From the IMG/VR virus record IMGVR_UViG_3300021963_000185, positions 1 through 50,180 of that record: a DNA stretch of 50,180 nucleotides, one strand, 5' to 3'. The stretch is from a virus. Each line of letters opens with the position of its first letter. Position 1 is the first letter of the stretch. The notes beneath the pieces were generated by a model. It saw nothing but the letters and a program-made list of their open reading frames with translations. It was not told the DNA's origin and did not search any database. Positions 12,376 through 46,429 of this stretch are shown here, one piece after another. A program made the translations under genes and the position numbers.

Positions 12376-15300
12376 TACGAACGCTCCCTAGCTATCGATT
12401 CGGCACGCTTTATTTTCTGCATAACAACATTAGCTATTTCCTCTGGAGAGTTGGTGCCACCATTGATGTGGAATGTGTACGTATTTCCTCCGCTAGTAGA
12501 GCTTCCAGGAACGACTATCGGGGTGGATGAATTCACCGCAGGCGTCATAGTGTCGCCGATTGCTCCAGGCCCTGGAACCACGTGAAGATGTCTACTACCA
12601 GACGTTCCGTGGAATTCCGCAAAACCTCCAGATTGACGAGTCAATACAGCGTACTGCCCTAGATTTTGGCCGACTAGGTCTATTGCTCTTCCAGTGACAT
12701 GGTCCGAGTTGATGGAGCCAAGATTGCCGGTTCTATACGAAGACGTAATTGTTCTATTCCCAGTCAATTGACCGTTTATTGCGCTGTGTCTGGCCATCGT
12801 CTGAGATAGACGGGATGATGTTGTGTCTCCAACGGACGAGCCTCGTGGCGTTGCTGTATCCGCCTCCTTTGCAACCATGTCAATAAATTTCTGAGTCATC
12901 CATTCAGGCTTATTTGTGCCGCTAAAGTACGCCGATATGTTTGACGAGAAGTTGTCAACAGCCGTTTTAAACGTATTGCTAGCGGTATCCATCTTGTCTG
13001 CAACGAGATTTGCTCCTTCGTCCATTTCACTGAGGGATATTTTTCCTGTTTGTCCATATTGAGCAAATACCTTGCTGGCTTGAGCTTGCATGAACTCAGA
13101 TTCGGTTTTAAAACCGGCATCGGTAATCATTTTGTTTTTTTCTGCATCGGTTTTGTTAGCGAGAGGATTATTAAAGTTAATCTTTCCTCCTTCATAATCG
13201 AGCAAGAACTTCTGCCTATTGGCATCACTCATGCCCGATATGAGACCGCCTATCTGCTTGTCGTTGGCAATGAATCCCATATTTGCCATTTGCGCGGATA
13301 TGTCGGATGATGCAGTTCCAACGAATCCCTGCTCTGTGCGCTTGTTTTGTTCGGTAAGAGCGCCAGAAACCCTGTCGGTAAAGAATTTGTTAGGGTCGAT
13401 TCCGTACATAAACCCGCCGGGCTGGAATGCGGCTCCTGGCGCGTCCTTTGTACCAAGCTGTTGCTGCTGACCGTATAGAGCCTGAATCGGGCTGTCGTAC
13501 ACTGCTAGCGAAGATTCTTGGAACTTCTTGAGGTTTTCTAAAATAGCCTTATCACCTGCGCCAGATTCAACAGCACTGGCAAGAGCAAAGCCAGCTTCGT
13601 CATATATTTGTGGGTCAACAATTTGCTTTATTGCCTCATCAAATGCGCTAATGCCCTGGACAAAGGAGTCAATGTTCAGATTTTTTATTTCTTCTGCTGT
13701 TTTTCTGGTTGCCAATCCGAGCTTTGTTACTAAGTCGGTAAAATCAATCATTGGGTCGTAGAGGTTTACACCCATACTTTTTGCTAGCTGCTCTAGTTCT
13801 GCGCCGGATTTTCCGCTTGCATCCTGTAGCTTTTTCATTCTGTTTGTAGTTTGCTCGTCGATGGTTTTCATCGCATCGATTCTGTCCGGCAAACCTTTTT
13901 GCAATTCCTTAAAACCGGAAGCTTCGTCTTTGTCCAATTTCTTAAGTTCTTCTTCAGAGAACAAGTCCTTAAACGCTGGGTCTTTTAGGGCATCCTTGAA
14001 AACTGCTTTATCTTTTTCTAGTTGCTTTTTACGCCCACCTCTATTGAACAGACCTTTCACCCCGCCAGCTATTCCGCCAACAAGACTGCCGATAGTTCCA
14101 CCTATCGCTGCTCCTATTCCGGCCCCTATCGCCGTGCCAAGTGGTCCGCCTATTGTTCCTATCGCTCCACCGACTAGCGCTCCAGCGCCTCCACCAATTT
14201 TTGCTCCACCCTTAGCCCAGTTCCCGGCTTGCTCCATGGTTGAATTGGCGTACTTGCCCTTGAATCCTCCCTTTTGTAGCTTTCCTTGCAGCTTTTCATA
14301 TTTGGCAGCAGTTTCTCCGGCTACGCCGCTGAAGGCCGCCCCCATGTTTGATATGTCTCCGCCGGCGGCAACTCTTCTTTCAACTGCTGCCGCTCTTTGC
14401 CCGGCGGCAACAAACTCTTTCATCATTATGTTGTCGAGGAATCCGTTCATTGCGGCCTTGGCTTCTTTTGCGCGGACCTTCATTCCGTTACTGAAGCCCA
14501 TTACAGCGCCGGTAATTGCGCCAAGAGCAGCACCTACTGCCGTACCAATTCCTGGAGCAATCATTGTTCCTATTGCAGCACCCGCTCCAGCACCAGTTAA
14601 ACCACCGGCTAAGCCGCTCTGCGATTTAAGCGCCGCGCCGCCAAGACCAACAGCAAGACCAGCAAGCGGGTTGAATTGTCCAACCATTCCGCCAAGAGCC
14701 ATTGCTCCCTGCATCTCTTCTGGCATGAACTGAGAAGCCATTGACATTCCCATACCAACGCCCATTTTGGCAGTCATTGAGTTGTTTATGCCGCCAATGC
14801 CAAGCTTTTCGTTTCCGAGAATTGCAGAACCAAGGGCGCTTTCTCTTCTGGACCTGTTTGCAAGGCTGAGCATATTCATTCTCGAGCCAACGCCAGTGCC
14901 CTTGCCTGAAAAGCCTTTTGTAGACACCTGGCCTGCTTCGTTAATAGTGCCTATCTGCTGGCCATTTTTAGTGCTAAGAATTCGGCCAGTTGGGACTTTT
15001 ACATCGTTGCCATCAGCATCCTTGACAGTTTTCATTTCCTGAAATGCGTATCTGCGCCCGGTTGTTTTGGAACGGAAAAGGTCATTTTCCCTTCCATCTA
15101 TGCCGAATGCTGGGTTATATTGGGCACGCCACATGCGAGTCATGAAGTTAACACGAGAGGTTGCTCCGGTTGTCCCCGAACCGCCTGCGCCCGGAGGTGC
15201 TGTTCCTGGACCGCCCATACCACCAGATGGCGAACCTCCGCCACCAGGGGCAGTGCCAGCGGTGTATCCAGTTCCTGGGCCTCCTGCACCAGACGAGAAT

Positions 15301-23091: not shown

Positions 23092-23649
23092 TTATCTATC
23101 CGCGTTTGGTGGCGACTCTATTGAGATGCCAAAATCATCAGTAGTCCCAGGAGGGGCTTCGACCGGAACCCATGCACGCGCATACGTATGGTCTTTTATA
23201 TTTCTGGCTTTCAAAAGCGAGTTATTTATCATCAAGGAGTATTCCTCCTTTTTCATGCACAACGTTCGTTCTAATTTTTCCGCATCTACCGTTTTAGACA
23301 TGACAAGTTTTCTTACAATCTTTGACATTGGCTTAGCAAAAAGTGCCCCTCGTGAACGGTTAAAGCGCAAATGCATCAACATCGCATCAAGGGAAGAAAC
23401 ATCGTGCTCTATTACGGGTATCTCGTCCCCCACGACGTCGGCTATCCTGCTGACCCGCGTGGCCAGGAGAAATCTTTCCGACCCGTCAATTATTTCCCCA
23501 GTTGATTTTCTCACCTGTAGGGGTTGAGTAAACCCGTAATCCATCAATGAAGCTGAAAGAGCAAGCAAATCAGGGCGCAATATGTAAGTTGATTTCCATT
23601 CTGGAACAAAAAGTTCTGATGGTTTTTTGTAGACGATTTCAAGCTTCAT
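23092..23649 (-). CDS. ParB-like nuclease-domain protein, second copy (185 aa)
   Basis: I chose ATG 23647-23649, overlapping the upstream stop by 11 bases; a TTG at 23676 is less likely. The ParB/sulfiredoxin-fold signature is present: an N-terminal PSELFVPEW region, LSASLMDYGFTQPLQVRK, IIDGSERFLLATRV and ending in LMHLRFNRSRGAL. It has no helix-turn-helix DNA-binding part of chromosomal ParB. It forms a cassette with a PAPS-reductase-like gene and another ParB-like gene, as in IbrA/IbrB pairs. The fold can be a CTPase or nuclease; the role in this phage is unknown. Confidence 0.7.
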   Translation of the reverse strand: MKLEIVYKKPSELFVPEWKSTYILRPDLLALSASLMDYGFTQPLQVRKSTGEIIDGSERFLLATRVSRIADVVGDEIPVIEHDVSSLDAMLMHLRFNRSRGALFAKPMSKIVRKLVMSKTVDAEKLERTLCMKKEEYSLMINNSLLKARNIKDHTYARAWVPVEAPPGTTDDFGISIESPPNADR

Positions 23650-24778
23650 ACACTGTGTCAATTCCTGCTTCTGCAATTCTTACTGAATCTGCTTTTGTTT
23701 TTGGTCCTACTGGTGTGGGTGAATTTACGTCTATATCGTTTAGGGCTAAATTCCTAATTAGCCAACTGACAGGGTATCCATATGGGTCTTGAAGGTGTTT
23801 TTTTCTGAACCTGGATACATATGCCTTTGCGTCCCTCTGTCTTCGTTCCCCTATTAGGTAGTCGTTGATAAACATGAGGGCACCGTCCCAGCTATGCGAA
23901 GCATACTGAGATATGAGTTTTTCTATGTCGAATTCTGTCCACCATCTGCGCTGCGCATCTATCTGTGGAAAGCATTCAAACAGTCTGTCGTAGAATTCCG
24001 GCTCTGTAGCTACAACATCGCCGATGCGCCTAATCGCTACTGAATGAAGGGGTATCCCAACTCTTGTATTACTTCCAGTTAGTGCTGCAAGGTCGTAATA
24101 CTCGCAAAATTCTGCTCCATGTTCCTCTGCAATGAACTTGAAAACATCATTCGTGTTCCAGTCATAAATAACTTTTGCAAACTTGAGAGGTATGCCAGCC
24201 TTCAACTTGTATGGGGTGACAATGTAATTTTCGTGTAGTTTTTGCACTATTGACCTGTAGCGGACCATTGACTCGCTCGCCCTGACTCCAGTTATGAAGG
24301 CAACGTTTCCCTTCTTGCCCTGCATCGTGTAGTAATCGGTCTGCTCGGGAAGTGATACGTCGTGAGTCAAGCCAAAGTGTTCGCCAGTTATTGCCCACGG
24401 CGGTATGTCTCTAACTAGACGACCCATTTTTTTGCGTGCGTTACTCCAAAGAAGGGTCGTAACTCTTGAGCCAAGAATCCATATTTCTGCTGGGTACGGA
24501 AGGCAGTACCACTCCATATCGACCCAGTCGTACTGACGGACACGCTCCGTGTACTCAACCACGGTTGGGCTGACCATTTCTTCGTCCCTGAAGATTACCT
24601 TAACCGGTCCAAGGCCGCGTTCTTCATGCACTTCTTTTGCTAAGTAAAGTACAGCAGTACTATCTTTGCCGCCAGAGAACTGAACACAGACCGTATCAAA
24701 CGTGTCGTAGACGTGTCTAATCCTCTGCCTTGCTGCGTCAACGCACGACATATCGAGGAACATTCTTTGGCGAGTCAT
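23639..24778 (-). CDS. PAPS-reductase-like (IbrA/DndC-type) PP-loop protein (379 aa)
   Basis: ATG in a TAATG overlap. Residues 35-40 are the PP-loop SGGKDS (context VCVQFSGGKDSTAVLYL), which binds ATP in the adenine-nucleotide alpha-hydrolase fold of PAPS reductases, DndC and IbrA. Other conserved features are VIFRDEEMVSPTVVEY, the tract FITGVRASESMVRYR and IPLKFAKVIYDWNTNDVF. Length agrees with IbrA proteins. It is flanked on both sides by ParB-like genes. Possible roles include a sulfur or nucleotide modification of DNA or tRNA, but no Dnd or Ssp partner is in the window. Confidence 0.75.
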   Translation of the reverse strand: MTRQRMFLDMSCVDAARQRIRHVYDTFDTVCVQFSGGKDSTAVLYLAKEVHEERGLGPVKVIFRDEEMVSPTVVEYTERVRQYDWVDMEWYCLPYPAEIWILGSRVTTLLWSNARKKMGRLVRDIPPWAITGEHFGLTHDVSLPEQTDYYTMQGKKGNVAFITGVRASESMVRYRSIVQKLHENYIVTPYKLKAGIPLKFAKVIYDWNTNDVFKFIAEEHGAEFCEYYDLAALTGSNTRVGIPLHSVAIRRIGDVVATEPEFYDRLFECFPQIDAQRRWWTEFDIEKLISQYASHSWDGALMFINDYLIGERRQRDAKAYVSRFRKKHLQDPYGYPVSWLIRNLALNDIDVNSPTPVGPKTKADSVRIAEAGIDTVYEA

Positions 24779-33904: not shown

Positions 33905-34429
33905 ATGTCAAAATCCTCGGCAAACCCTGCAATTCAGTACAAAGCTGCCACTCAGGGTGCTATAAATCTTGACGAAGCCAAGGGCATAGTCGAATGCTTC
34001 GTAGCCGGAATTGGTAACAAGGACTCGGTCGGCGACGTTTGTGCGCCAGGTGCGTTCTCGAAGAGCCTGATGCGCCGGAAGCCAAGAGTCGTGTGGGGAC
34101 ACAACTGGAACGACCCAATCGGCAAAGTTCTTGAAATATACGAGGTACCACCGAACGACCCTCGCCTTCCAGGAAAGATGCGCTCGGCCGGCATCGGTGG
34201 ACTTTATGCACGAGTTCAGTTCAACCTTATGTCAGAAAAGGGAAAAGAAGCGTTTGCGAGCGTTGCTTTTTTTGGTGAGGAACAAGAATGGTCTATTGGT
34301 TATAAAACAATTAATGCCAAGTTCGACCAGCAGATGCAGGCAAACGTCTTGTACGAAGTTGAACTTTATGAAGTGAGCCCTGTTCTCCATGGAGCAAACC
34401 AACTCACAGGAACAATTTCTGTTAAGTCA
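33905..34429 (+). other. Prohead protease domain (HK97 / S78-like) of the polyprotein
   Basis: Residues 1-175. GIVECFVAGIGNKDSVGDV, APGAFSKSL, H66 in VVWGHNWNDPIG, S130 in EEQEWSIGYK and E153/E156 in YEVELYEVSPVLHGANQ follow the order His, Ser, acid of phage maturation proteases. Full-length for this family is about 180-220 residues, so the domain is complete. It follows the portal, its usual neighbour. It would cut scaffold and capsid, and probably the rest of its own chain. Confidence 0.8.
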
Positions 34430-37400
34430 GACGAAAACTCTGCCGTCGCCGTTATGGAAAGAGCTGTTAGCTCAATAGCGGACATCGGAAATGCCAATTC
34501 TTCAGAACTGAAAGAAGTTCTAGATGCGCTGAAGAAAATAGCTTCGTCTGTATCGGAGGACGAGAAGTGCGGACCAGGCATGCCACACATGCAAAGACCA
34601 GCGACGCCTTCCGGAATGCCTTCTGCACCAGCAACAGGACCAGCTCCACGTTCGGTTGTAAAACCAACTAGACCGTCTATCCCGGAAAACCCAATGGTCG
34701 TAGCGCTTCGCAGGGAGCTTGTTGCACGAACAGGTTCTAACATTATCGTTAGGTCAGCGGGTGACAATGTTGTTGTGTTTGACCGCGTGATGAGTGATGG
34801 AACTGCGTCTACATACAGGCTCGCTTATCATTACGCAAGTGGCGAGTTCATGTTCGGCAAGCCGGAAAAAGTTAGTGCCCAGACCGTCTACACACCAGAG
34901 ACTCCTGGAGCATCTGGAGATGCATACTGGGGCGATGACTACTCCGAAATGCCTAAGTCTCTAGGATTCGATGAATTCTGGGGTTCAGGGTTCGGAAGTG
35001 AAATCAACTTCCAGGCAGATACAGGAAATGCTTTGATGGGGGTGATAGAGAGCCTTCAGCAAATAATTGATGAAAAGTCCGAATATGTAATACCGGTCGA
35101 ACCGACAGAGGCCTTTGAGTTCAAGCAGATGATTGACCCAGTGCTTGAGTACTACAAAGCAGATGCGAGAGTAACTGAGGAGGGGATTGTAGTTAAGTCG
35201 GCACACAATCCAGAGCTAATTGAAGCTCTTGATGTCGCGACTAAGTCCGTACTGGGAAAAATCCGAAGGGGCATTGGCGCTGGAAGGCGTCTTGATGCTC
35301 CAAATATTGGCGGAGGAAAGGGTCGCAGTAGAGCGGCTAGAGCAATCGGCGCTGCTACTGGTGGTGTAGCTGGAAATCTAGACCCGTCCAAGATTTCAAT
35401 GAATGACCCAGATGGTGACGGCTGGGCAAAAGAAGGCTCAAAAAATCCAGTGTGGGTTGGCTTTAAGAAAGCTACACAAAAACTTACTGGTGGTGGCAAA
35501 AAGAAGCCATCAAAAGATGAGCAAAGAGCTCGTTCTGCGGTAAACGCAGACAGACCTGGTCCGCCACGTCCAGGCACACAGAGAGCATGGGACGCCCCAT
35601 CGGTGCCTGCACCGCCACGTCCAAGCAGGGTCACGTTGACCGACGACGCCGGCGCAAGACTGCGCGAAGCAAGCCGTCAGCGGGCAAGAGAGCTCGGCTT
35701 TGATAGAAGCGTTGACCCAGCACCGCCACGCCCTCGAAAGAAACTCACTAACCAGGTAACAAGAGCTCCTCGTCCTGGTGATGGGGGTAGAAAACCGTCT
35801 GGTGAATCGATAGCCAACGCAATACGGCGTGAAACATCCGCATCAAGCCCTGTCCTGGGTCAGCAGCTAGCCAACGATATATCTAAGTACGGCTACCCAG
35901 AAGAAATGTCAACCGATGATTTGATTAGAACCGTCGCTGATTTCAGAAGAGAGCTGACTTCAGCAAGAAGAGATTTTGAAAAACTCCAATCGGACAGGTT
36001 CTCCGGAAAAGATGTTCCTTCAATGGAAATCAAGAAGGCAAGACAGCGTATTGATTCGCTTCGCCAAAGAGCATCCGTATACTCCTCGGAAATTTCAAAA
36101 CGTGACAAAGTAAAAGGCAACGACAGATTCTCTTCAGGGAAAGCGGTAACTCCAGAAGCAAAGCGCATGAGAAGACATGCCCCAATTGGAACTACCGGTG
36201 AATTTGACCTTCCGGAAGAAATAGCTGCAAGAGAAAAACACGAAGCATTTGTAGAGGAATTCAAAAAGCAAAACGGTTTTTGGCGCGATATCCCAAGAGC
36301 CGGAACAGTGAACTCCATGAACACTTCAGAAGAATGGCAGCGCGCTCGGGAAATTTCTCACAACGTAGCAATTCGGGAATGGGAAGAGACAGAGTTAAAC
36401 AGAAGACCAAAAGATTTTAGCGAAAAAGCAAGAGCATCCGTCGACTATCTGACATGGTACGGAAACTTCGCGAAGAGAATGGGTGGCTACCTCGATAGGG
36501 AAGAGGCAAGCGAAAACATTACTGACGACGAGCTAAGCGGCGCAAGGGCTGCAGTACTTGAAGTACTTGCTGAAAAGAGAGCCGTACCAGGTTCGAGAGA
36601 AGCTCTATCAAACCTAGAAAAAATGATGGATGATGCTGGATTCGGCCCTAATGGTCGCCACGAGACACCATGGGGCGGAAGAAAGAGAACATCTGTTACG
36701 GGATTCTCTTCTGGGAGAACAATAGATAGAAATGTCATGAAGTCTTTGAAAGACGACGGATTGGCGCTAGATGACGACGATGTCGTTGCTATTTTGCTTC
36801 CCAACTCAGGGCTTATTGTCCACAAAACTCTCACTGCTCGCAAAGATGACAGTTCCCTAAACTGGAAAAACATTCTTGGCGACAGCAAGGTAGAGCCAAA
36901 GGACCCGACTTCGCCAAGGGCAATGATTCGTCTAGATGCTGAGGGCTTCCAAAAACTAAGCGATGCCATGGACGCGGCAAACTCTGAGTTCGTACCTGGA
37001 CAGCTTTTGCCGCCACACATCGGAACGATAAAAGATAAAGATTTCCCATACTCTTATCCACCATCTACAAGATTCTCATCTGGCAGTAAATATGCACCAG
37101 AAATAGAGGACGAGCTGTGGCTCGACTCTGAACTGGGCGGCAACAGAGCGGCAGACAGAATTAATACCGAAAACGTCGATATGGAGATAGTTCCATCTTC
37201 CGACATAGGCCTTGATGGGCCAGATGCGGGAGCATGGACTGTTGTAGGTATGTACCGAGGGGAAGATTATGGCTCCGTCGACTATATCTACGAGACAGAT
37301 ACCTTTGATTCTGTAGAAGAAGCAAGACGATTCATAGAAACATATGACAGGTTGATAGAGGAAGAAATTAGACCTGGAGACCCAGAGTTCTTCCTTGACA

Positions 37401-40400
37401 TAAATAATTACAATAGAAGCAACAAAATATCCCTTGATGATGACCTTGACTCTGCCATAGACAAAGCAGTGCAAACTAGGAAGGATAGAGAGAATGCTCC
37501 GTATGACTACGGCAGCCTTATTTCTTCTCTTCTTTCTGATAGGGCACTAAATGTTTTTGGTGATGGGGAATCACGGTTCTCTTCTGGGCGCAACAAGGCA
37601 GAAAGACGCCAAGACGTCAAGAGGGTCATGGCTACCAACATGGCAGATAGGAAAGTAAACCTAGGGATACTTTCTCGTCGCATGAAGGGAGAAACCCTGG
37701 ACGAGGTTGGTAGGGCATACGGTCTAGATAGAGGAACCGTTCGCCAAATGGAGATGCGGGAAATGAAGCGCCTCAGAGATGGTGCAACTCCAAGCGAGAT
37801 ACTCGCCTACAGAATGGAAGGACTCACCCTCGACGATATGAGCAGAATGCTCGGAATGTCTCGTGAAGATGTAAGAAGAATTGAGTCTAGAGAAATAGCA
37901 CGCATGAGGCTCGACGGGCGCGATGGAAGCGACGCAATATTCGAGGGACGCAAAGCTGGATTGAGTCGCGAATCAATAGAGAGGATAACCGGCCTATCTG
38001 CAGACGACATAGAGACAAAAGAGAGAAAAGGATTCGAGAGAGCCGTAACTCGCGAAGATGTTTCTTATCAAATATTTGACAAGTATGTAACAAACTTTGG
38101 CGAAGATGAACTAACCGATGCAGAACTCGCAGAGGAGCTGGGAGTTAGTGAAAGAATTGTTTCCGAGGTGCGCGCAGGAGCAAATAAGAACATACTCGAC
38201 GCCCGTCGCGACATGGATGAATACTACAGAAGCCTTCCGGAACCAACTGATGAAGAGCTTCAAGCAGAGGCCAATTACTACGCAGATAACTTCGCTAGAG
38301 AGCAGGGTTTCAGTTCCTACGGCGAATATGAGGAGTACCTCTCCAGTGTGGGCAAAGAAGAAGGCGGAGCAAGGCTGTCTTCTGGATTAGTTCGTCAAAT
38401 GACTATCGAAAATCCACTACTAATAGGAACGCTTGCTGGTATTGCTAGCTCTAAGATTCAGAGAAGAAGAAGAGAAAGACTCGACGAGGATGAAGAATAT
38501 CTCGACGACGATGACAACGACGAGAGATTTTCTTCCGGTGCAGGCAAGAGCAGCCTTACGCCCAGCCAAAAGGTTGGCCAAAGGGTGTTTGATGAAGCAT
38601 CCAAGATAGCCAAAGAAGATAAGAAAGACATTTTCGACACAATGGATGCACTCATCTTTGATGAGCGCTTCGATTCCGTTAACCGTGGGGAAAAGCTCGA
38701 CACAAATGAGATGTATGCTCATATCAATGCCCTTCTTTACCCGGAGGGTGCTAAAGAAAGCAAGAAGCGCAGACTCTGGAGAAGAGAAAGACTCTCCTCT
38801 GGCGGCTCTTCTAGCGAGATACGTAAAAAGAAGCGCGCAAAAATAAAGCAGAAGGCATGGTCGGAAGAAGACCTCCAAAGATTCCGCGATAGAAACATAC
38901 TCAAAGCCAAGACACGCCCAGGAAAACGCAAGAACGGCCCATCTGCAGAAGAGTTTTCTTCTGGAAGAAAGAGGATAGACACCGCTGGAAGTTCAGCGCT
39001 GACTGGAGCATTCTATGATGCCGACAACGAAAGACTTGTTGTCGGGTTCAACAAGGGTGGCGTCTATGCGTATGACGGAGTAACCCCAGGAGACATAGAA
39101 GAGTTGCACAATGCCGAAAGCAAGGGTGCAGCTATGGCTTCAATCAAGAAGAAATACAAGGGCGTAAGGCTGTCTGAAGCAGACGACAGCCTAAAAGCAA
39201 CTAAGCAGGGCGACGAGTGGGTCGTTAACCCAGATAATGAAACAACATATTCAATATCCGAAGACGGCGGTGAATTCTTTGTTTTAAGAACAACTGGAAG
39301 TTACGCACGTGATGGTGGACAGTCTGGCGATGAGTACTACCACCCAGAGTCTTTCAAGAATATGGACTCTGCGATGAAGTGGGTAGAGCAGGACTTCTTG
39401 CCGTCAATTACTCCAGAGCCGTGGGACGAGGACGACTACGACGTAGACAGATTCTCGTCAGGTGGACCAGTTCGTGCCGCAAATCTTATGCAGTTTGACA
39501 CTCGTAGAAGCAGACGCGCTAGCAACATGACATATGACCCGCAGGATGGTCGTGTTGGTGTTACCTACAACGACGGTAGTGAACGGTTTTTCTCAGAGGT
39601 CCCATACGAAGCAGCAAGTTCTGCTGGTAACCCAGCAAAAGATATAGACGATTTTATCGATGACCTGGAAAAAGGAAAAGTTGGCAGAGAGGGCGGAAGA
39701 TTTAGCTCTGGTGCTGGCTCGGTGCCAAGAACTGATTGGGACTATTCATATCAGAAGTTCCCGCCAACAGAAGAGCAGGCAGTCATTGCAGATGCGGTAG
39801 CAACTGGTGAGAACGTGATTGTAAGAGCATTTGCCGGTACTGGTAAAACTTCTACTCTTGTAACGATTGCTGAAAGACTAAAGCGTCAAGACCCGAAGAA
39901 GAGAATCGTCTACATGGCGTTCAACAAGGACATTCAGCTTGAAGCTGAGGGCAGATTCCCTGGGAATACAGAGTCTCGAACTGGTGACTCAATCTCCTGG
40001 AACTGGGTCAAGCAGACGATGGGTAAAGCTTTCACTGACAGAATGGGCAGTAACGCACCTGAAAGAGTTAAATCCAAGGGGACGCGCAACAAAGATATAT
40101 CTGTTCATTTCAAGATTAAGCAGATGGAACATCCAGATGGTCTTAAAGACTCAACAACAGGAAGCCCTGTAGTTCTTGATGCGGTTGACGTAACAAAACT
40201 TGTAAGAGAGGCTGTTAAGCAGTTCCTTATCTCGGAAGATGATGAAATAGGCGCGCAGCACTTCAAGACAATCCAGAATGTTCCGCCCGTTCTGTTGGGT
40301 CACGCAAAAGCTATTTGGGATGACATGAACGACCCAGATGGCGTAATGAAGCTCGACAACTCAGTTTTCACAAAGATGTGGGCCCTATCGAGACCGCAGC

Positions 40401-43400
40401 TCAGCGAAGGTGTTGGACTATTTAAAGGAAAGCCGTCCGTAATATTCTTTGACGAAGCTCAGGACATCAACCCAGTAATGGCAAGAGTTATGCGCGAGCA
40501 GAACATCCAAGTCGTATTCGTTGGAGACAGCTACCAGGCTATTTACGGATTCCGTGGAGCATCGGACAGTCTAGAAAAAGCGGAAGCCGCATACGACCTT
40601 CCGCTCACTGGCTCATGGAGATTTGACAGCAAAATAGCTGGATATGCAAACAGATTCCTAGCATACATGGGTTCAAAAAACAGAATTCGTGGAGTCGGCA
40701 AGCCAGGCAATGGCGTTGTTGAACCAGAGTCGATGGTTGACCCAGATGCAATCTTGACAAGAAGCAACGGCGGAGCGCTCCGTGCAGTTGTGGAGCAAAT
40801 ACAGCTTGGCAGAACTGTAGGAACTTCTGAGAACTTCAAGAAGGACCTAACGAGATTTGCGTGGCACGCAGTAATGCTCAAGGCTGGTAAACAAGTAAAA
40901 AATCCACATGAGGAGCTAGAAGAATTCTCTTCATGGAAAGAGGTTCAGGATGCAGCCAGCGCCGAGGATGCAAGCCCGCGACTGAGAATGCTTGTGCAGC
41001 TATTCAATGACACGCCAAACATTATCGACATACTAGACCAGGTCGTTGTTGGGGGCAAGCTCAAGGGGGAGTCCGGTGGCGGCTCCGGCAAGAGAATTCT
41101 GCCGAGCGAAATAACAGATGGCTTTGAGATGTCTATAGACCCAGGCAGCATGGGTAAATGGGCAGGAGATAAGAAAACGCAGGTTTTGTATAAGAACGGA
41201 AAGCTGTTCTTGCAACTCCCATACACCAAATACCCTTCATCTGATTCGGATGCAAAGTTTGAGTGGCAAAAGCAAAATTTAAATCCGATAGGTAAAGTCC
41301 AAAAAGGTAAACCGGACGAAACAAATGGCAAATATGCAATCTGGGTTGACGCAACTCCAGAACAGGCAGCAGAGTTACTCTCTGGCATAACTTCAGGTGA
41401 TGCTCAAGAAGTTGACGTCATGGTAATGACGGCACACAGGTCAAAAGGTCTTGAATTTGGGAGAGTTCGGCTTTATGGAGATTTCCCAAGACCAAGACTC
41501 AACAAGAAGACCAACGAGATGGAGTACCCATCACCAGAGGAGCAGAGACTTCAGTATGTTGCGTCTACGAGAGCAATACGCGAACTAGACCCAGGCCCTA
41601 CAGACTGGATATACGGGGAAACATCAGAAGACGATGAAAGCCCAGATGTACCGGGTGGTTTCTCGTCTGGTGCAAGAGGCAACCCGATACCAAGCGCTAT
41701 TGGTAAGGATATGGTCCTAGAAGATGGCGGAACACTTGAAGACAATATGTTCAAGGGCACATACATCGCCGACTTTAATGGTGGAAAGATGGTCATCCAG
41801 CCAGCTGGAAGAGATTCGTGGGCTGTTTACCGTGCCGACTTCAGTGGTGGAGAAGATGGACCTTCTTACAGTTTCAGTTACGGACCGCCATCCGACGATG
41901 CAGAGTTTGGCTCACTGGCAGATGCGTACGAACATGTCCTGAACTACGTCAAGGAAAACGATATTTCTCTGGACTCTCTGGATGGCACTAGACGGTCAAA
42001 AGGTAGCGAGTCTTTCTCTGAGGCAAAAATTTCCAATTCAGATTCTGGAATTGCACAGAGATTTAGCTCTGGCCGCAAAGATGCGGATAAGAGACTTAAA
42101 GAAGCAAGAAAGTCTTCATCTAAGAAAGGCGACAAAGCAGAAGGCAAAGATTCGCGCCTAGATAGAGCAGTAGATGCTTACCTGAATTATGTGTTCGGCG
42201 CAAATCAATCATCTCGTCTTTCTTCGGGACGCAGTCAGGAAAACAATGGCGTAAGCAAGCGTGATGCTGAAGACGTTGAAATCTTGGCTAACTATTACAT
42301 GAATTCATATGGAGGATATGACGACGAGCTCGGGGACTGGCTAGACAGCAATCCAGGAAAGACAGAGAACGACTACATCTCCAGCCAGGAATTCTCGGAG
42401 AGAGTCGATGAGATGGAAAACGTTATGGCCGACGCTGGAGACAGTATGGCTGAAAACCGTCTTGATGAATATGCAAACCGCAGATTAGGTTCTGGGGCTA
42501 ACTCAGAAAGACCATCAGACGAAGATATCTACAATCTTAGAATGTCCGGCCCAACTCTTGAAGAGGTTGGCGAGCAGTACGGAATGACCCGCCAGGAAGT
42601 TCGAGCTGCCGAAATGCGCCACATAAGAAGAATGCGTGATGAAGGTTTTGAGTCAACTGGGACACCAACTTCGAGAAGAGAGCGTCGCTTGTCTTCTGGC
42701 GCTAACAGAGGAGGGATAAAAAGGTCGACAAACTCTGGAGTAGCGAGAAAAGATGGGAAGGTTGTCCTTGCGAGAAGAACCGAAGTCTCACAAGGTTGGA
42801 CTGGTGCCCCAGAAGAATATCTGAAGCCAGATGATGACTTTTTTGATGCAGAATCAGCATCAAGAATACTCAACAACCCCCTAGAGAGCTATAACGACCA
42901 AACCGGATGGCCGGTTCCGGCGAAAGAATTCTTCCAAAGTCTTGTTCTAGGCAGACCAGGCCAAGACGTAGATGTCATGGATGAAGACGGGAAATTCACC
43001 ACAGATGGACGTCTTAGAATCAAGAGTCTATTAACCGGCTCTGAGGCTGCAAAAGAGAAGTTTATAGACAGAATCGAATCTGGCGAAGTTTCTCATATGC
43101 AAGCAGTATCCGCAATGACTCTGCTTGAAAAAATCGGCATGAACGTCGGGGATGCTTCTGACCACATGTTCGAGACATTCGGATTCAAGTCGGCACCAGT
43201 TTGGGTTTCTGGCTTGGATGCAAGAGACCCGGACTACGACCTAATTAGGGGTGAAGTTAACTGGTCCCCGCTAACAGAAGAACAGTGGGTTGATGAAATC
43301 AAGCAGGCCTATGTAGACAACGCCAACATAAGTCAGTACGCAAAGAACAGAAGAGACTGGGTAACCAGAAATAAGGGCAAGTCAGAGAAAGATTATGAGG

Positions 43401-46400
43401 CGAGCCCTGAGTTTTTGCAAGACGCAAAACGGGCATATCTCTACAACAAGGGAGTTATGGGCCCTGCCGAAGTATATTCTCACCCATACTCACATTTCTA
43501 TGCAATGAGAGAAGACCAGAGAGATGCAGTAAAGAAGAACTGGCTTTCTCAGAACCCAGGAAAGACAGACGCTGACTACGACGAGGCGATGTCATGGGGT
43601 GGCGAAGGCGACCCAGACCTATCTCCTTTAGTTGGTGGATGGGGTTTTGGGGACCCACGAAAAGCCGCGTCAACAACTCTACAACCAGAAGCTGGCTCTC
43701 CGACTAAGAGGCCAGTATCACCTCAGCCATCGTCTTCGACTAAGTCTTCGCTATCTCCAGACACAACCAGAAGGCTATTCAAGGCGTTCAAGAGAGATGT
43801 AATACTTTCTGCTGCCGGAATAAATGAAGGAACAAACAGAGAAAAAGCAAAGAAACTCTCTGAGCTTGTCGGGTTTGACATCAATGAAGAGACATTCGAC
43901 AGATACAGAAAAGACGGCGTATCCCCACGTGTGGTAATAGAATTACTACGTAAAGGCCATATCAAAAACTTAAGTGGCATAGGTAATGCTGACCGGGCAA
44001 ACGACGACCTCAATGCGCTGGTTCGAGAGGCGAATAAATCCGTCTTTGTATCTACGGCTTTTGGAAGAATCAGAGAGGCGGCCAGGGCGGCAGGTCTTTC
44101 TGACGAATCTTTCGGAAGAAGCCTATGGAAAATGCTTAGCAAGGACCACGAAGTACACGTATTTGGCAAAGGTGACAGAGGTGTTCCAAGAAGCGGAATG
44201 GCAGATGGCGGAATACCAGCGACGTTCAACTTGAGCAAACTTGACCTACTAGGAGAGAGTGAACTAACAACTCTCGTTGATGGTCTAAACAAGATGGCCG
44301 AATCTGAAGGCTCTTCGGCAAGATTCTCCATAGATGAGATATTCCCAAGAGACGGTGACGCATTCGCTGACCCATTCGGTGAGTCGAAGATAAGAATGAG
44401 CAGCGGTGCTTCTCCGGTAAAGGGTCAACGCTTTGTAGCCAAGCCCAAGGAAAACAGATTGACTGCTGCAGCCAGGGAGACAGCAGAAATGCGCTTCTCC
44501 TCCGCAGCTAGACCTACGTACAGAACAGCCGGGGGTGGCATAGACAAAGATGCTATGTCTGCCGACATCGACGATGCAATACGCGGTCCAAGACTTGGTG
44601 CTGTCGCCATAACTACCGCCAACGCAGACAACGTTGGCAGAGAACAGATTGACAACCTTGCAAGAGCAATAACACTGCGTCAACACATAGCCGACATGTT
44701 CCCAAGCGTTGTTAACGATAGAACTGGTGTCTCCTACGATATAGAGCCACTACTTATCGAACAAGGGCTAGACCCCAAGGACGCGGAAAAGCTCACTGAC
44801 CTGGTTAATGACCTTGATGACTACATCGATGGCATCGTCGGGCAGTTCGAAGAAGAGGGAGACAAGCTCGAATCTGGACTGCGCCGCATGAACGACATGC
44901 TTGATGAAGTTGAAAGTCTTCGCAAGTACAGAAAAGAAACAATCGAGAAGTATGGCGAAGATGATGCAAGAAACCTGGTAGCAAGACTTGACGACAAAAT
45001 CAACAAGCTAACAACTTCAATAGACGAGGAATACCAGGCGACAATCGGCAGCAATAGAACAAATATGGCAAAACTCAGAGATGAGGCGCTTGCTCTTGTT
45101 GATGACAACCCCGGATTTGAAAAGCCCAAAGCTGGGTCAGACGGTCCTCGCCTATCTAGTGGTGCGAACTCACTTTCATCGAAGCTTATAGCCCTTGAAA
45201 TGTCGATGGGGCGCTCTGCTGAGGGCGGTCTTCCCAAGTACACCCCTGTTAGCAAGATTGACTTCAATGTTCCATCTGGAACAAGACTTTCTTCTGGTAA
45301 AGCGGACGAATGGTACGAAAACCTAACCGCAAAGTTGATTGAACAAATAGAAAAAGTTCAGGCATCAGGTGGAGACACGTGGCAGTTCCCTTGGCACAGA
45401 ACAACTTCCATGCCGAAGAACGGGATATCGAACCACGTATTCAGCGGCATGAACCCATTTGTTTTGATGCTTTCAGCAGATGAAAAGGGCTATACCAGCA
45501 ACAAATGGGCCACATATAACCAGTGGCAAAGCGTTGGTGGTCAGGTAAGAAAAGGCGAAAAAGGTACACAAATTCTGGCCCCAGTTTTCAAAAAGGTAAA
45601 AGACCCAGATACCGGCAAAGAGGAAACAAAACTAGTCAACTGGAGAACCTATTCGGTATTCAACCTTGAACAAATTGAAGGCATAAACCCAGACGACTAT
45701 AAAGACGACCCGAAAGAGCTTCTCGACGAAGCGGCGCGTGTAGAGAAGGTTGACAAGGCCTTCTCTGCGGTTGGGGCAGAAATAGAAACGGGTGATGGCT
45801 CAAGCGCACATTACAGCCCATCAAAAGACAAGGTAGTTATGCCTCCTTTTGCCTACTTCAAGACACCAGAGGGCTACTATGCGACTCTCGGTCATGAGTT
45901 GGTCCACTGGACCGGGCATACATCCAGACTAGATAGACCCAATATGAACCGCTTTGGGACGCCGGAGTACGCACGGGAGGAATTGGTTGCAGAATTAGGA
46001 GCAGCATTCCTAATGGCAAACTTCGGACTCTCTGCAGAGCCTAGAGAAGACCATGCCCACTATCTGGCCAACTGGCTCAAGGTTCTGCGCGAAGAGCCCA
46101 AAGCCCTCCAAGAGGCAGCTAGAGAAGCGCAAAAAGCTTCAAAACTGCTTATCGAAAAGATGAGGCAAGTGCTGGAAGATGCAGGCGTAGCGGAAGAGAC
46201 CATCGAAGATGTGGTCGAAGAAAAAACCGCAAAGGTAGGAATGTTTTCTGGGTCAGAGAGTAATTCTCTACTACAAGTAGCAGGGGCTCTCCCCGCCTAC
46301 CTCCGCATGGAAGTTGAGGCAGCAATTAAAAGCACCGCCTCAGAAGAGGTTCTATCAACTAAGGTTATTAACAGAATTTCAAAAACAATTGAACTTCTAG

Positions 46401-46429
46401 AGACATTCTCGAAGCAAAAAGGTATTTGA
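33905..46429 (+). CDS. Giant polyprotein: prohead protease, HTH modules, KTSC, SF1 helicase, ArdC (4174 aa)
   Basis: ATG with a strong AAAGGAG four bases upstream; no stop in 12.5 kb. In order: HK97-type prohead protease (1-175); low-complexity and unknown regions with a DPDGDG calcium-like motif (501-506); sigma-region-4-like helix-turn-helix repeats (1229-1489); KTSC domain (1688-1760); complete UvrD/Fbh1-type helicase (1937-2584); another sigma-like HTH (2865-2927); a 560-residue region with W-x3-NPGKT-type repeats (2933-3496); coiled coil (3535-3748); ArdC antirestriction protein with HELVH (3799-4174). Domain boundaries coincide with (R)(F/L/M)SSG motifs: residues 741, 933, 1056, 1224, 1490, 1541, 1629, 1683, 1849, 1932, 2585, 2719, 2771, 2928, 3497, 3749, 3794, plus degenerate 698, 2860, 3530. 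I infer cleavage at these sites by the N-terminal protease. It is far larger than typical phage head proteins. Confidence 0.85.
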   Translation: MSKSSANPAIQYKAATQGAINLDEAKGIVECFVAGIGNKDSVGDVCAPGAFSKSLMRRKPRVVWGHNWNDPIGKVLEIYEVPPNDPRLPGKMRSAGIGGLYARVQFNLMSEKGKEAFASVAFFGEEQEWSIGYKTINAKFDQQMQANVLYEVELYEVSPVLHGANQLTGTISVKSDENSAVAVMERAVSSIADIGNANSSELKEVLDALKKIASSVSEDEKCGPGMPHMQRPATPSGMPSAPATGPAPRSVVKPTRPSIPENPMVVALRRELVARTGSNIIVRSAGDNVVVFDRVMSDGTASTYRLAYHYASGEFMFGKPEKVSAQTVYTPETPGASGDAYWGDDYSEMPKSLGFDEFWGSGFGSEINFQADTGNALMGVIESLQQIIDEKSEYVIPVEPTEAFEFKQMIDPVLEYYKADARVTEEGIVVKSAHNPELIEALDVATKSVLGKIRRGIGAGRRLDAPNIGGGKGRSRAARAIGAATGGVAGNLDPSKISMNDPDGDGWAKEGSKNPVWVGFKKATQKLTGGGKKKPSKDEQRARSAVNADRPGPPRPGTQRAWDAPSVPAPPRPSRVTLTDDAGARLREASRQRARELGFDRSVDPAPPRPRKKLTNQVTRAPRPGDGGRKPSGESIANAIRRETSASSPVLGQQLANDISKYGYPEEMSTDDLIRTVADFRRELTSARRDFEKLQSDRFSGKDVPSMEIKKARQRIDSLRQRASVYSSEISKRDKVKGNDRFSSGKAVTPEAKRMRRHAPIGTTGEFDLPEEIAAREKHEAFVEEFKKQNGFWRDIPRAGTVNSMNTSEEWQRAREISHNVAIREWEETELNRRPKDFSEKARASVDYLTWYGNFAKRMGGYLDREEASENITDDELSGARAAVLEVLAEKRAVPGSREALSNLEKMMDDAGFGPNGRHETPWGGRKRTSVTGFSSGRTIDRNVMKSLKDDGLALDDDDVVAILLPNSGLIVHKTLTARKDDSSLNWKNILGDSKVEPKDPTSPRAMIRLDAEGFQKLSDAMDAANSEFVPGQLLPPHIGTIKDKDFPYSYPPSTRFSSGSKYAPEIEDELWLDSELGGNRAADRINTENVDMEIVPSSDIGLDGPDAGAWTVVGMYRGEDYGSVDYIYETDTFDSVEEARRFIETYDRLIEEEIRPGDPEFFLDINNYNRSNKISLDDDLDSAIDKAVQTRKDRENAPYDYGSLISSLLSDRALNVFGDGESRFSSGRNKAERRQDVKRVMATNMADRKVNLGILSRRMKGETLDEVGRAYGLDRGTVRQMEMREMKRLRDGATPSEILAYRMEGLTLDDMSRMLGMSREDVRRIESREIARMRLDGRDGSDAIFEGRKAGLSRESIERITGLSADDIETKERKGFERAVTREDVSYQIFDKYVTNFGEDELTDAELAEELGVSERIVSEVRAGANKNILDARRDMDEYYRSLPEPTDEELQAEANYYADNFAREQGFSSYGEYEEYLSSVGKEEGGARLSSGLVRQMTIENPLLIGTLAGIASSKIQRRRRERLDEDEEYLDDDDNDERFSSGAGKSSLTPSQKVGQRVFDEASKIAKEDKKDIFDTMDALIFDERFDSVNRGEKLDTNEMYAHINALLYPEGAKESKKRRLWRRERLSSGGSSSEIRKKKRAKIKQKAWSEEDLQRFRDRNILKAKTRPGKRKNGPSAEEFSSGRKRIDTAGSSALTGAFYDADNERLVVGFNKGGVYAYDGVTPGDIEELHNAESKGAAMASIKKKYKGVRLSEADDSLKATKQGDEWVVNPDNETTYSISEDGGEFFVLRTTGSYARDGGQSGDEYYHPESFKNMDSAMKWVEQDFLPSITPEPWDEDDYDVDRFSSGGPVRAANLMQFDTRRSRRASNMTYDPQDGRVGVTYNDGSERFFSEVPYEAASSAGNPAKDIDDFIDDLEKGKVGREGGRFSSGAGSVPRTDWDYSYQKFPPTEEQAVIADAVATGENVIVRAFAGTGKTSTLVTIAERLKRQDPKKRIVYMAFNKDIQLEAEGRFPGNTESRTGDSISWNWVKQTMGKAFTDRMGSNAPERVKSKGTRNKDISVHFKIKQMEHPDGLKDSTTGSPVVLDAVDVTKLVREAVKQFLISEDDEIGAQHFKTIQNVPPVLLGHAKAIWDDMNDPDGVMKLDNSVFTKMWALSRPQLSEGVGLFKGKPSVIFFDEAQDINPVMARVMREQNIQVVFVGDSYQAIYGFRGASDSLEKAEAAYDLPLTGSWRFDSKIAGYANRFLAYMGSKNRIRGVGKPGNGVVEPESMVDPDAILTRSNGGALRAVVEQIQLGRTVGTSENFKKDLTRFAWHAVMLKAGKQVKNPHEELEEFSSWKEVQDAASAEDASPRLRMLVQLFNDTPNIIDILDQVVVGGKLKGESGGGSGKRILPSEITDGFEMSIDPGSMGKWAGDKKTQVLYKNGKLFLQLPYTKYPSSDSDAKFEWQKQNLNPIGKVQKGKPDETNGKYAIWVDATPEQAAELLSGITSGDAQEVDVMVMTAHRSKGLEFGRVRLYGDFPRPRLNKKTNEMEYPSPEEQRLQYVASTRAIRELDPGPTDWIYGETSEDDESPDVPGGFSSGARGNPIPSAIGKDMVLEDGGTLEDNMFKGTYIADFNGGKMVIQPAGRDSWAVYRADFSGGEDGPSYSFSYGPPSDDAEFGSLADAYEHVLNYVKENDISLDSLDGTRRSKGSESFSEAKISNSDSGIAQRFSSGRKDADKRLKEARKSSSKKGDKAEGKDSRLDRAVDAYLNYVFGANQSSRLSSGRSQENNGVSKRDAEDVEILANYYMNSYGGYDDELGDWLDSNPGKTENDYISSQEFSERVDEMENVMADAGDSMAENRLDEYANRRLGSGANSERPSDEDIYNLRMSGPTLEEVGEQYGMTRQEVRAAEMRHIRRMRDEGFESTGTPTSRRERRLSSGANRGGIKRSTNSGVARKDGKVVLARRTEVSQGWTGAPEEYLKPDDDFFDAESASRILNNPLESYNDQTGWPVPAKEFFQSLVLGRPGQDVDVMDEDGKFTTDGRLRIKSLLTGSEAAKEKFIDRIESGEVSHMQAVSAMTLLEKIGMNVGDASDHMFETFGFKSAPVWVSGLDARDPDYDLIRGEVNWSPLTEEQWVDEIKQAYVDNANISQYAKNRRDWVTRNKGKSEKDYEASPEFLQDAKRAYLYNKGVMGPAEVYSHPYSHFYAMREDQRDAVKKNWLSQNPGKTDADYDEAMSWGGEGDPDLSPLVGGWGFGDPRKAASTTLQPEAGSPTKRPVSPQPSSSTKSSLSPDTTRRLFKAFKRDVILSAAGINEGTNREKAKKLSELVGFDINEETFDRYRKDGVSPRVVIELLRKGHIKNLSGIGNADRANDDLNALVREANKSVFVSTAFGRIREAARAAGLSDESFGRSLWKMLSKDHEVHVFGKGDRGVPRSGMADGGIPATFNLSKLDLLGESELTTLVDGLNKMAESEGSSARFSIDEIFPRDGDAFADPFGESKIRMSSGASPVKGQRFVAKPKENRLTAAARETAEMRFSSAARPTYRTAGGGIDKDAMSADIDDAIRGPRLGAVAITTANADNVGREQIDNLARAITLRQHIADMFPSVVNDRTGVSYDIEPLLIEQGLDPKDAEKLTDLVNDLDDYIDGIVGQFEEEGDKLESGLRRMNDMLDEVESLRKYRKETIEKYGEDDARNLVARLDDKINKLTTSIDEEYQATIGSNRTNMAKLRDEALALVDDNPGFEKPKAGSDGPRLSSGANSLSSKLIALEMSMGRSAEGGLPKYTPVSKIDFNVPSGTRLSSGKADEWYENLTAKLIEQIEKVQASGGDTWQFPWHRTTSMPKNGISNHVFSGMNPFVLMLSADEKGYTSNKWATYNQWQSVGGQVRKGEKGTQILAPVFKKVKDPDTGKEETKLVNWRTYSVFNLEQIEGINPDDYKDDPKELLDEAARVEKVDKAFSAVGAEIETGDGSSAHYSPSKDKVVMPPFAYFKTPEGYYATLGHELVHWTGHTSRLDRPNMNRFGTPEYAREELVAELGAAFLMANFGLSAEPREDHAHYLANWLKVLREEPKALQEAAREAQKASKLLIEKMRQVLEDAGVAEETIEDVVEEKTAKVGMFSGSESNSLLQVAGALPAYLRMEVEAAIKSTASEEVLSTKVINRISKTIELLETFSKQKGI
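37589..38371 (+). other. Helix-turn-helix repeat module, sigma-70 region-4-like
   Basis: Residues 1229-1489, bounded by motifs at 1224 and 1490. At least four successive HTH units are visible. At about 1262 is ETLDEVGRAYGLDRGTVRQM, then EMREMKRLR. At about 1306 is LTLDDMSRMLGMSREDVRRI, then ESREIARMR. Weaker units start near 1349 (ESIERITGLSADDIE) and 1403 (AELAEELGVSERIVSEV). The first two follow the sigma region 4.2 pattern TL-x-EVG-x3-G-x-(T/S)R-x2-(V/I)RQIE, closing in a basic helix. DNA or RNA polymerase binding is inferred. Confidence 0.65.
38966..39448 (+). other. KTSC-domain module
   Basis: Residues 1688-1848, bounded by motifs at 1683 and 1849. The first part (SSALTGAFYDADNERLVVGF, GGVYAYDGVTPGDIEEL, AESKGAAMASIKKKYKGVRL) fits the KTSC domain, a small beta domain first noted at the C-terminus of lysyl-tRNA synthetases and common in phages; its function is poorly known. 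The second part (DEWVVNPDNETTYSISEDGG, ESFKNMDSAMKWVEQ) is a separate small alpha/beta unit. The next module (1854-1931) has a looser KTSC-like pattern (MTYDPQDGRVGVTYNDGS). Confidence 0.6.
39713..41656 (+). other. SF1 (UvrD/Fbh1-type) helicase module
   Basis: Residues 1937-2584, bounded by motifs at 1932 and 2585. Helicase motifs in order are Q-motif PPTEEQAVI, Walker A AGTGKT (1977-1982), motif Ia YMAFNKDIQ, motif II DEAQD (2183-2187), motif III FVGDSYQAIYGFRG, motif IV GSWRFDSKIAGYANRFL, motif V TAHRSKGLEFGRVRLYGDF and motif VI LQYVASTRA. All motifs are present in about 650 residues, so this is a complete, probably active 3'-5' helicase. Delivery in the virion or action in replication are both possible. 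Confidence 0.85.
42497..42685 (+). other. Second sigma-region-4-like HTH module
   Basis: Residues 2865-2927, between RLGSG (2860) and RLSSG (2928). The 63-residue unit is almost only one HTH: PTLEEVGEQYGMTRQEVRAA followed by EMRHIRRMRDEG. It aligns closely with the first unit of the module at 1262. It would be released as a tiny DNA-binding peptide if both flanking sites are cut. Confidence 0.6.
42701..44392 (+). other. Large unassigned module with W-x3-N-P/K-G-K repeats
   Basis: Residues 2933-3496. The motif W-x3-N-(P/K)-G-K-(T/S)-x2-D-Y occurs at W3152 (WVTRNKGKSEKDY) and W3213 (WLSQNPGKTDADY). A third copy sits at W2812 in the earlier module 2776-2859 (WLDSNPGKTENDY). A helical region follows (LFKAFKRDVILSAAGINEGT, KKLSELVGFDI). 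I do not recognise a family; it may bind DNA or act as a capsid-internal structural protein. Confidence 0.4.
44507..45148 (+). other. Coiled-coil module
   Basis: Residues 3535-3748. Long heptad-like helices (EQIDNLARAITLRQHIADMF, LTDLVNDLDDYIDGIVGQFE, ESGLRRMNDMLDEVESLRKY, ARLDDKINKLTTSIDEEYQA) with abundant charge suggest an elongated coiled coil. Such segments often serve as internal scaffold cores in phage heads. It lies between a degenerate RFSSA site and RLSSG. Confidence 0.5.
45299..46429 (+). other. ArdC-type antirestriction module
   Basis: Residues 3799-4174. The N-terminal ArdC domain (ADEWYENLTAKLIEQIEKVQ, GDTWQFPWHRTTSMPKNGIS, LSADEKGYTSNKWATYNQWQ, GGQVRKGEKGTQILAPVF, WRTYSVFNLEQIEGI) binds single-stranded DNA in the plasmid protein. 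The following zincin domain has HELVHWTGH (H3997, H4001) and a likely third ligand E4030 in EELVAELGAAF. ArdC from plasmids protects incoming single-stranded DNA from restriction enzymes. Here the module is complete (about 300 of 376 residues). The position at the C-terminus of a head-associated polyprotein suggests virion delivery, as with P1 Dar proteins. Confidence 0.8.

Follow-up and report, generated by a model that had tools for sequence, protein, structure and literature searches.

Predicted sigma-70 region 4-like HTH cassettes in a prohead-protease polyprotein of uncultivated phages

Gene organization and the HTH modules

The window, that is, the whole stretch of DNA analyzed here, is a virus record of 50,180 bases that is possibly a fragment. 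The gene for the portal protein lies upstream of a gene for a giant polyprotein on the + strand, and the terminase, tail sheath, tail tube and tape measure are encoded on the opposite strand, which also carries a gene for a phosphoadenosine phosphosulfate reductase family protein (23639-24778, -; phrog_2302, E 2.7e-76). The features of the polyprotein gene are the following.

33905..46429, + strand: polyprotein gene, 4174 aa; open reading frame read from the sequence
33986..34417, + strand: prohead protease domain (Peptidase_S78 / HK97 type) at the polyprotein N terminus, residues 28-171; profile matches
37574..38371, + strand: module A, residues 1224-1489, from RFSSG to RLSSG, with four predicted HTHs; sites and predicted structure
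37655..37786, + strand: unit 1, residues 1251-1294, predicted sigma-4-like HTH; profile matches
37787..37918, + strand: unit 2, residues 1295-1338, predicted sigma-4-like HTH; profile match
37919..38056, + strand: third HTH of module A, residues 1339-1384, degenerate; predicted helices, no family match of its own
38057..38209, + strand: fourth HTH-like segment of module A, residues 1385-1435, degenerate; low-confidence helices and a weak HipB match
42482..42685, + strand: module B, residues 2860-2927, 68 aa, from RLGSG at 2860 to RLSSG at 2928; motif sites, profiles and model
42515..42646, + strand: the single predicted sigma-4-like HTH of module B, residues 2871-2914; profile and predicted structure

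The N-terminal domain, which is the presumed cutter of the polyprotein, is recognized by the Pfam profile Peptidase_S78 above the cut-off (PF04586, E 3.7e-9) and by the NCBIfam model proheadase_HK97 with 44.9 bits, below the cut-off of 59 for that model. In the Pfam search, KTSC and UvrD-like helicase segments were matched in the middle of the protein, and ArdC-N together with MPTase-PolyVal in the C-terminal part, where PF08401 and PF18818 score far above cut-off. Thus, ArdC-N and MPTase-PolyVal are found among other, unlike domains within one phage polypeptide, as in polyvalent proteins, the large multidomain phage proteins that carry ArdC-N and MPTase-PolyVal and whose delivery along with the DNA is predicted (Iyer et al. 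2017, PMC5512222). By domain content, the polyprotein belongs to this kind of protein, as a variant. Its prohead protease is N-terminal, whereas the assemblin-like peptidases are described as always C-terminal in polyvalent proteins (PMC5512222), and it differs from the proteins covered there also in having repeated SSG sites and sigma-4-like HTH cassettes; the main text of that paper names rare 'other HTH domains' and leaves sigma unmentioned.

Sigma-70 region 4-like HTH arrays had been placed by an initial annotation at 37589-38371, and both the coordinates and the frame are right: these positions are residues 1229-1489 of the polyprotein, within the module that extends from RFSSG (1224) to RLSSG (1490). 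The strings quoted there are present as well, at 1264 (TLDEVG), 1307 (LTLDDM) and 2884 (TLEEVG) as compared to the approximate positions 1262, 1306 and 2882 given originally, and the third copy does reside in a short module of its own, delimited by two motif sites. In a near relative of the window (L005), module A is 86% identical. The predicted helices of the third HTH occupy positions 119-127, 132-139 and 143-173 of module A, and the weak match of the fourth segment, to a HipB-type antitoxin HTH, covers residues 1402-1427. A recent tandem duplication at the DNA level was rejected as the source of the array, which contains no tandem repeat and consists of paralogous units that are 46-50% identical.

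Sequence relationship to sigma-70 region 4

Searched against the whole polyprotein, the Pfam profile Sigma70_r4 matched three stretches (E 3.1e-13, 49.5 bits; cut-off 24.1). Scored as single copies, units 1 and 2 exceed the cut-off with 26.5 bits each, and the unit of module B, with 21 bits, falls below it. Sigma-70 region 4 was the top-ranked family in Pfam, NCBIfam, PHROGs and sequence searches of the PDB, with sigma models ranking first for modules A and B alike both in NCBIfam and in PHROGs. At E<=1, module A matched 31 PDB chains, namely, 28 sigma factors and 3 others; module B matched 70 chains, and among the best 60 listed, 59 are sigma, the other being a 'CAP repeat' chain. A profile built from an alignment of 25 units (A3) matched 78 PDB chains at E<=0.1, the best 60 listed being all sigma factors, headed by RpoH (1.8e-9, a score summed over two stretches, one of which is outside region 4) and followed by HrdB and SigA chains at about 2e-8. 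When the 25 members of this alignment were scanned singly in Pfam, 22 matched Sigma70_r4, 11 matched Sigma70_r4_2, and 8 matched HTH_28.

Other HTH proteins of related phages also score with PF04545 (about 18-28 bits), so that this profile on its own is thin evidence. As a control, we used a 221-aa HTH protein of related phages; it matched eleven PDB chains at E<=1, none of them sigma, and therefore not every HTH of these phages resembles sigma in the way the polyprotein units do. A chance origin of the units was rejected too, given that the unit HMM finds none in reversed proteins or in 10 residue shuffles. Judging from these sequence comparisons, the units are very probably sigma-4-like HTHs. 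The region 4.2 signature noted in the initial annotation is thus supported, with Sigma70_r4, mainly its 4.2 part, as the nearest known sequence family in preference to generic HTHs, and the HMM comparison proposed there as a check ranks Sigma70_r4 first and does not bear out placement in an unrelated HTH family. Most of the units cover only positions of about 10-50 or 16-49 (of 50) in the Sigma70_r4 profile, the one unit aligned over the full region 4 being unit 1, in which module residues 8-69 align with positions 104-163 of the NCBIfam model TIGR02937, the stretch corresponding to regions 4.1 and 4.2 in sigma models.

Sigma70_r2 did not match the polyprotein (P0001) at E<=1 in Pfam, and 14 related records, fragments among them, likewise yielded no sigma region 2; it seems, from these searches, that the phages bring no full sigma factor. 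As candidates for a standalone sigma factor, we considered PF04545-scoring proteins of 206-227 aa and rejected them: they consist of an HTH followed by a long tail, and the one tested matches no sigma chain. In the search with the unit profile, they score 22-31 bits, as against mostly 50-91 bits for matches in frames >1000 aa, many of which came from the training alignment and two of which score 24.3 and 26.8. These proteins (L111:1241-1903 and the like) form a conserved set in their own right, with an N-terminal HTH and a PF04545 score and with sigma likeness absent in the PDB search; judged by eye, they are perhaps the small terminase.

Predicted fold of the HTH modules

The AlphaFold2 model of module B (25 aligned sequences) contains helices at positions 13-21, 26-33 and 37-59, the pLDDT being about 94 for residues 11-50; the sites are located in the flexible ends. 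The confidently modeled part comprises just the three helices of an HTH, and the first helix of region 4 is not formed. In Foldseek, the first match of this model was domain 4 of S. aureus SigA (probability 0.98, E 0.41), in a list dominated by sigma region 4 with archaeal, LuxR-type and transposase HTHs interspersed. VIA-align superimposed it on Taq sigma region 4 with a Z score of 6.2 (1.0 A over 46 residues) and gave the highest Z, 6.9, to an archaeal regulator, values below 8 being unspecific. Neither comparison, then, separates sigma region 4 from other HTH families, and the modeled fold is that of a tri-helical HTH, which on its own is no proof of sigma origin. For module A, the model, derived from 7 sequences, is less confident (mean pLDDT 74.7) and shows four consecutive HTHs spaced at intervals of about 44-46 residues. 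Accordingly, the structure prediction suggested in the initial annotation yielded the three-helix HTH in module B and did not single out a sigma origin.

These results bear on the possibility that the units are sigma mimics which, once released, dock on the beta flap of the host RNA polymerase in place of region 4 and redirect or block the enzyme. The closest sequences are those of the primary sigma region 4, unit 1 aligns along the whole of that region, and T4 gp33 provides an example of a working phage sigma-4 mimic on the flap (PMC2988020); however, the match of most units is limited to the HTH part of region 4, the first region 4 helix is missing from the module B model, and the 14 records searched yielded no partner containing sigma region 2. 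We regard such mimicry as unlikely and, in the same vein, treat a direct grip of the units on the beta flap as possible although doubtful and outside our main claim.

Putative protease sites and the cassette architecture of the polyprotein

The polyprotein is split into 19 segments by 18 sites of the form x[FLM](S/G)SG, 17 of which are [LFM]SSG and one LGSG. The 27 units of 16 representative polyproteins are all free of internal sites, and the median distance from a unit to the nearest site is 17 aa, compared to 80 aa for randomly placed units; none of 1000 randomizations gave a median this low. Aligned with L005, the window shows a one-to-one correspondence of segments, interrupted by gains and losses that fall at the sites: a 51-aa segment is present in the window only, and segments of 344 aa and 282 aa are present in L005 only. 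The exception is the border at window residue 1056, RFSSG in the window versus AFSSG in L005, which is outside the pattern used; the first border of module B also differs, RLGSG in the window versus GLSSG in L005. The 282-aa segment (L005 residues 3135-3416), which is located between two sites, matches the RNase_T exonuclease, an apparent cassette exchange of enzyme modules.

Beyond the polyprotein, [LFM]SSG occurs twice in the tape measure protein of the window (12375-17624, -) and once in a frame of 105 aa that runs antisense to a tail gene and that we take as spurious. A second large polyprotein is encoded downstream, with its start at window position 47994; in a relative (L119:1994-8632), where it has 2213 aa, it contains three sites. 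Judging by these motifs, one protease site may be common to several virion-associated proteins. Among the nine capsid proteins of relatives (L126-L134), eight contain LSS near residue 100, and the ninth, from the near relative of the window, has LTS instead; this is presumably where the delta domain would end if it were of the same size as in HK97.

A recurrent motif is thus found at domain borders, at points of cassette gain and loss, in the tape measure protein and, as LSS, in the capsid proteins; from the spacing of the sites, the gain and loss of cassettes and the tape measure and capsid motifs, we infer that the protease cuts at the sites. The HTH modules are probably excised there; the earlier placement of the units in segments bounded by a putative protease motif agrees with the absence of internal sites and with the sites close by. 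In the polyprotein of a relative (L101), residues 2700-2751 match the WYL domain with 22.2 bits (cut-off 21.8). WYL is a domain of transcription regulators.

Distribution of the units in related viruses

When IMG/VR was searched with the protease domain, 496 relatives were confirmed, 80 of which were kept; most of the 76 that were translated contain several LSSG-type sites. With an HMM of the three window units (E<1e-3), 35 polyproteins were found to contain 55 domains in total, and reversed or shuffled sequences contained none; 32 polyproteins with 46 domains remained after exclusion of the window and its near relatives. Among polyproteins of at least 1500 aa, a unit is present in 30 of 47, a count that includes truncated polyproteins, omits L013 and L015 (the same records as, or near copies of, L005) and takes one polyprotein that runs across record ends as two halves (L080, L108). 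At the level of clusters of long polyproteins (90% identity), the unit is found in 16 of 20 and is absent in 4.

The PF04545 scan, which covered 48 of the 77 listed loci, produced matches (E<=0.01) inside frames of at least 1000 aa in 27 of the 48 records, one of these (G039) being a separate 1478-aa frame and not the protease gene of that record. Matches of at least 50 bits to profile A3 were obtained in 16 of 22 records, 28 in total and all in frames >1000 aa, many of them belonging to the A3 training set. The family consensus is RRMxGESLxxxAxxLGxxRxxVRxxExRHMxRxR. By sequence conservation, the units are a phage cassette family that is widespread in related viruses, which makes the sequence case stronger than the initial annotation put it. 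In G039 (L064), the protease gene encodes just 998 aa and the separate frame contains a strong unit match (67.5 bits); the polyprotein of this virus may be split in two.

A tblastn search of a phage collection with the HTH modules returned nothing beyond seven weak matches (E 0.03-0.05), one of which is the annotated rpoD of a Microcystis phage. In the isolates DalanDe, GMA6, Gilgamesh and Cantare (4 of 946 records), which have relatives of the protease, the protease gene contains no [LFM]SSG site, and there is no unit.

Selection on the units and their DNA-reading positions

In comparison with L005, dN and dS are 0.010 and 1.08 for unit 1, 0.050 and 0.60 for unit 2, and 0.149 and 1.79 for the whole polyprotein; for the module B unit, dN alone was obtained (0.055). 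Because synonymous substitutions approach saturation in places, the dN/dS ratios are rough; on these estimates, units 1 and 2 are under strong purifying selection. In the recognition helices (11 positions), 11, 10 and 11 residues are identical between the window units and their L005 orthologues, whereas between the units of the window just 5, 6 and 5 of 11 are identical. Such helices, kept per unit yet unlike between units, suggest distinct targets.

Of 25 units, 23 retain the equivalent of R584, 23 that of R588 and 24 that of E591 (E. coli numbering), and every one has a basic residue at 593. An acidic residue stands in place of sigma R586 in 19 of the 25, and the counterparts of E585 and Q589 are variable. 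We take 584, 585 and 589 to be base-reading positions of sigma. Fold and DNA-facing side seem to be preserved, and the reading code appears to have moved, which is a better fit to several readers with different targets than to copies that read -35 elements like sigma. Given the acidic 586 and the variable 585 and 589, reading of the -35 element in the manner of sigma is unlikely for most of the units. Binding to DNA is likely.

The same observations weigh on the idea that the HTH bundles are structural spacers, that is, assembly or scaffold elements of borrowed fold with no role involving nucleic acids. The HTH is a common fold that can also mediate contacts between proteins, and 4 of the 20 polyprotein clusters manage without a unit, but the retention of the R584, R588 and E591 equivalents and of the basic 593 in nearly all units, together with the strong purifying selection on units 1 and 2, makes this explanation highly improbable.

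Another reading gives the HTHs a part in guarding or packaging DNA: they would cover or label the phage DNA, both inside the capsid and while it enters the cell, and transcription would not be involved. That the same protein holds ArdC-N, an antirestriction ssDNA-binding domain, as well as helicase and nuclease modules is in its favor. The net charge, -11.1 for module A and -1.1 for module B, speaks against bulk coating, and the recognition helices, with their suggestion of distinct targets, also run counter to it. We find little reason to prefer this role, and protection against nucleases or ordering of the DNA is an improbable purpose for the units.

A proposed route from the head to early transcription

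In the reading that we favor, and hold to be evenly poised, the units are sigma-4.2-like DNA-binding miniproteins that originate from the head polyprotein, are delivered with the genome and act on early transcription. Beyond the computed family, predicted fold, borders and conservation, this involves cleavage, packaging, injection, DNA binding and an effect on transcription, steps that we infer as follows. The HTH cassettes would be made within a single prohead-protease polyprotein, and the N-terminal protease would probably cut the x[LFM]SSG sites during head maturation, freeing the 68-aa single-HTH piece and a four-HTH array of roughly 266 aa inside the capsid. Inside the head, the freed pieces would remain associated with the DNA, and they would enter the cell together with the genome. 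In the cell, they would bind chosen dsDNA sites via the sigma-4.2-type recognition helix and, once bound, might bias very early transcription through activation or occlusion at promoter-like sites in phage or host DNA.

We lean towards delivery of the HTH pieces into the host and see site-specific DNA binding with a transcriptional role as a proposition for which the scales are level. The favored reading is supported by the company of ArdC-N and MPTase-PolyVal, domains of proteins that are predicted to be delivered with DNA (PMC5512222), and is weakened by the net negative charge, the acidic residue at 586, the polyprotein clusters lacking the unit, and the structural matches shared with other HTHs. 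A bolder version is a virion-borne split sigma system, in which protease-released sigma-4-like readers would pre-program the host RNA polymerase before phage gene expression; this we deem rather improbable, and the same holds for its corollary that, with each reader having its own recognition helix, neither a phage sigma factor nor a phage polymerase would be needed.

With sigma-70 region 4 (PF04545; SigA/HrdB/RpoD), the units share the closest sequence family and the predicted three-helix core. They differ from sigma-70 in that regions 2 and 3 are missing along with, in most units, the first helix of region 4, in the diverged base-reading positions, in the family-specific RHM motif and in being produced inside a head polyprotein. 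The nearest functional parallels, as far as the cited accounts go, are the minimal sigma factors of jumbo phages (PMC7824862) and the split sigma of T4 (PMC2988020). Group 2 jumbo phages encode 'minimal' single-HTH sigma factors along with gp33 orthologues (PMC7824862). Like the units, these are phage proteins with just the sigma HTH, but they are described as sigma or transcription factors and are not pieces of a head-protease polyprotein (PMC7824862). T4 gp33 is a small phage sigma-4 mimic without sequence similarity to sigma and without DNA sequence recognition (PMC2988020), and the situation here is the reverse: the units are sigma-like in sequence and their DNA-side residues are kept. The N4 virion RNA polymerase and T4 Alt are head-carried proteins for transcription takeover, and the N4 polymerase is packaged unprocessed (PMC5512222); these are enzymes, whereas the units are small predicted DNA-binding HTHs.

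The initial annotation had held sigma-like regulators made as pieces of a polyprotein to be undescribed. In the narrow sense, this stands: within the wording searched, the openly licensed literature yielded no phage sigma-like unit that is part of a head polyprotein. HTHs in polyvalent proteins (PMC5512222) and minimal sigma factors (PMC7824862) are nevertheless known from those accounts.

Should the favored reading be true, the proteins that accompany the DNA of a large group of uncultivated phages into the cell would include transcription factors in addition to enzymes; these factors would be cut from one head protein that also contains the protease, a means to control host transcription at time zero. 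Members of the unit family are amenable to expression as peptides of about 60-70 aa and to direct tests. In the search for hosts, we identified three metagenome-bin contigs (L123, L124 and L125) with a protease that is 74-76% identical and with conflicting labels, Phycisphaerae versus Gammaproteobacteria; these are probably phage contigs that were binned with bacteria.
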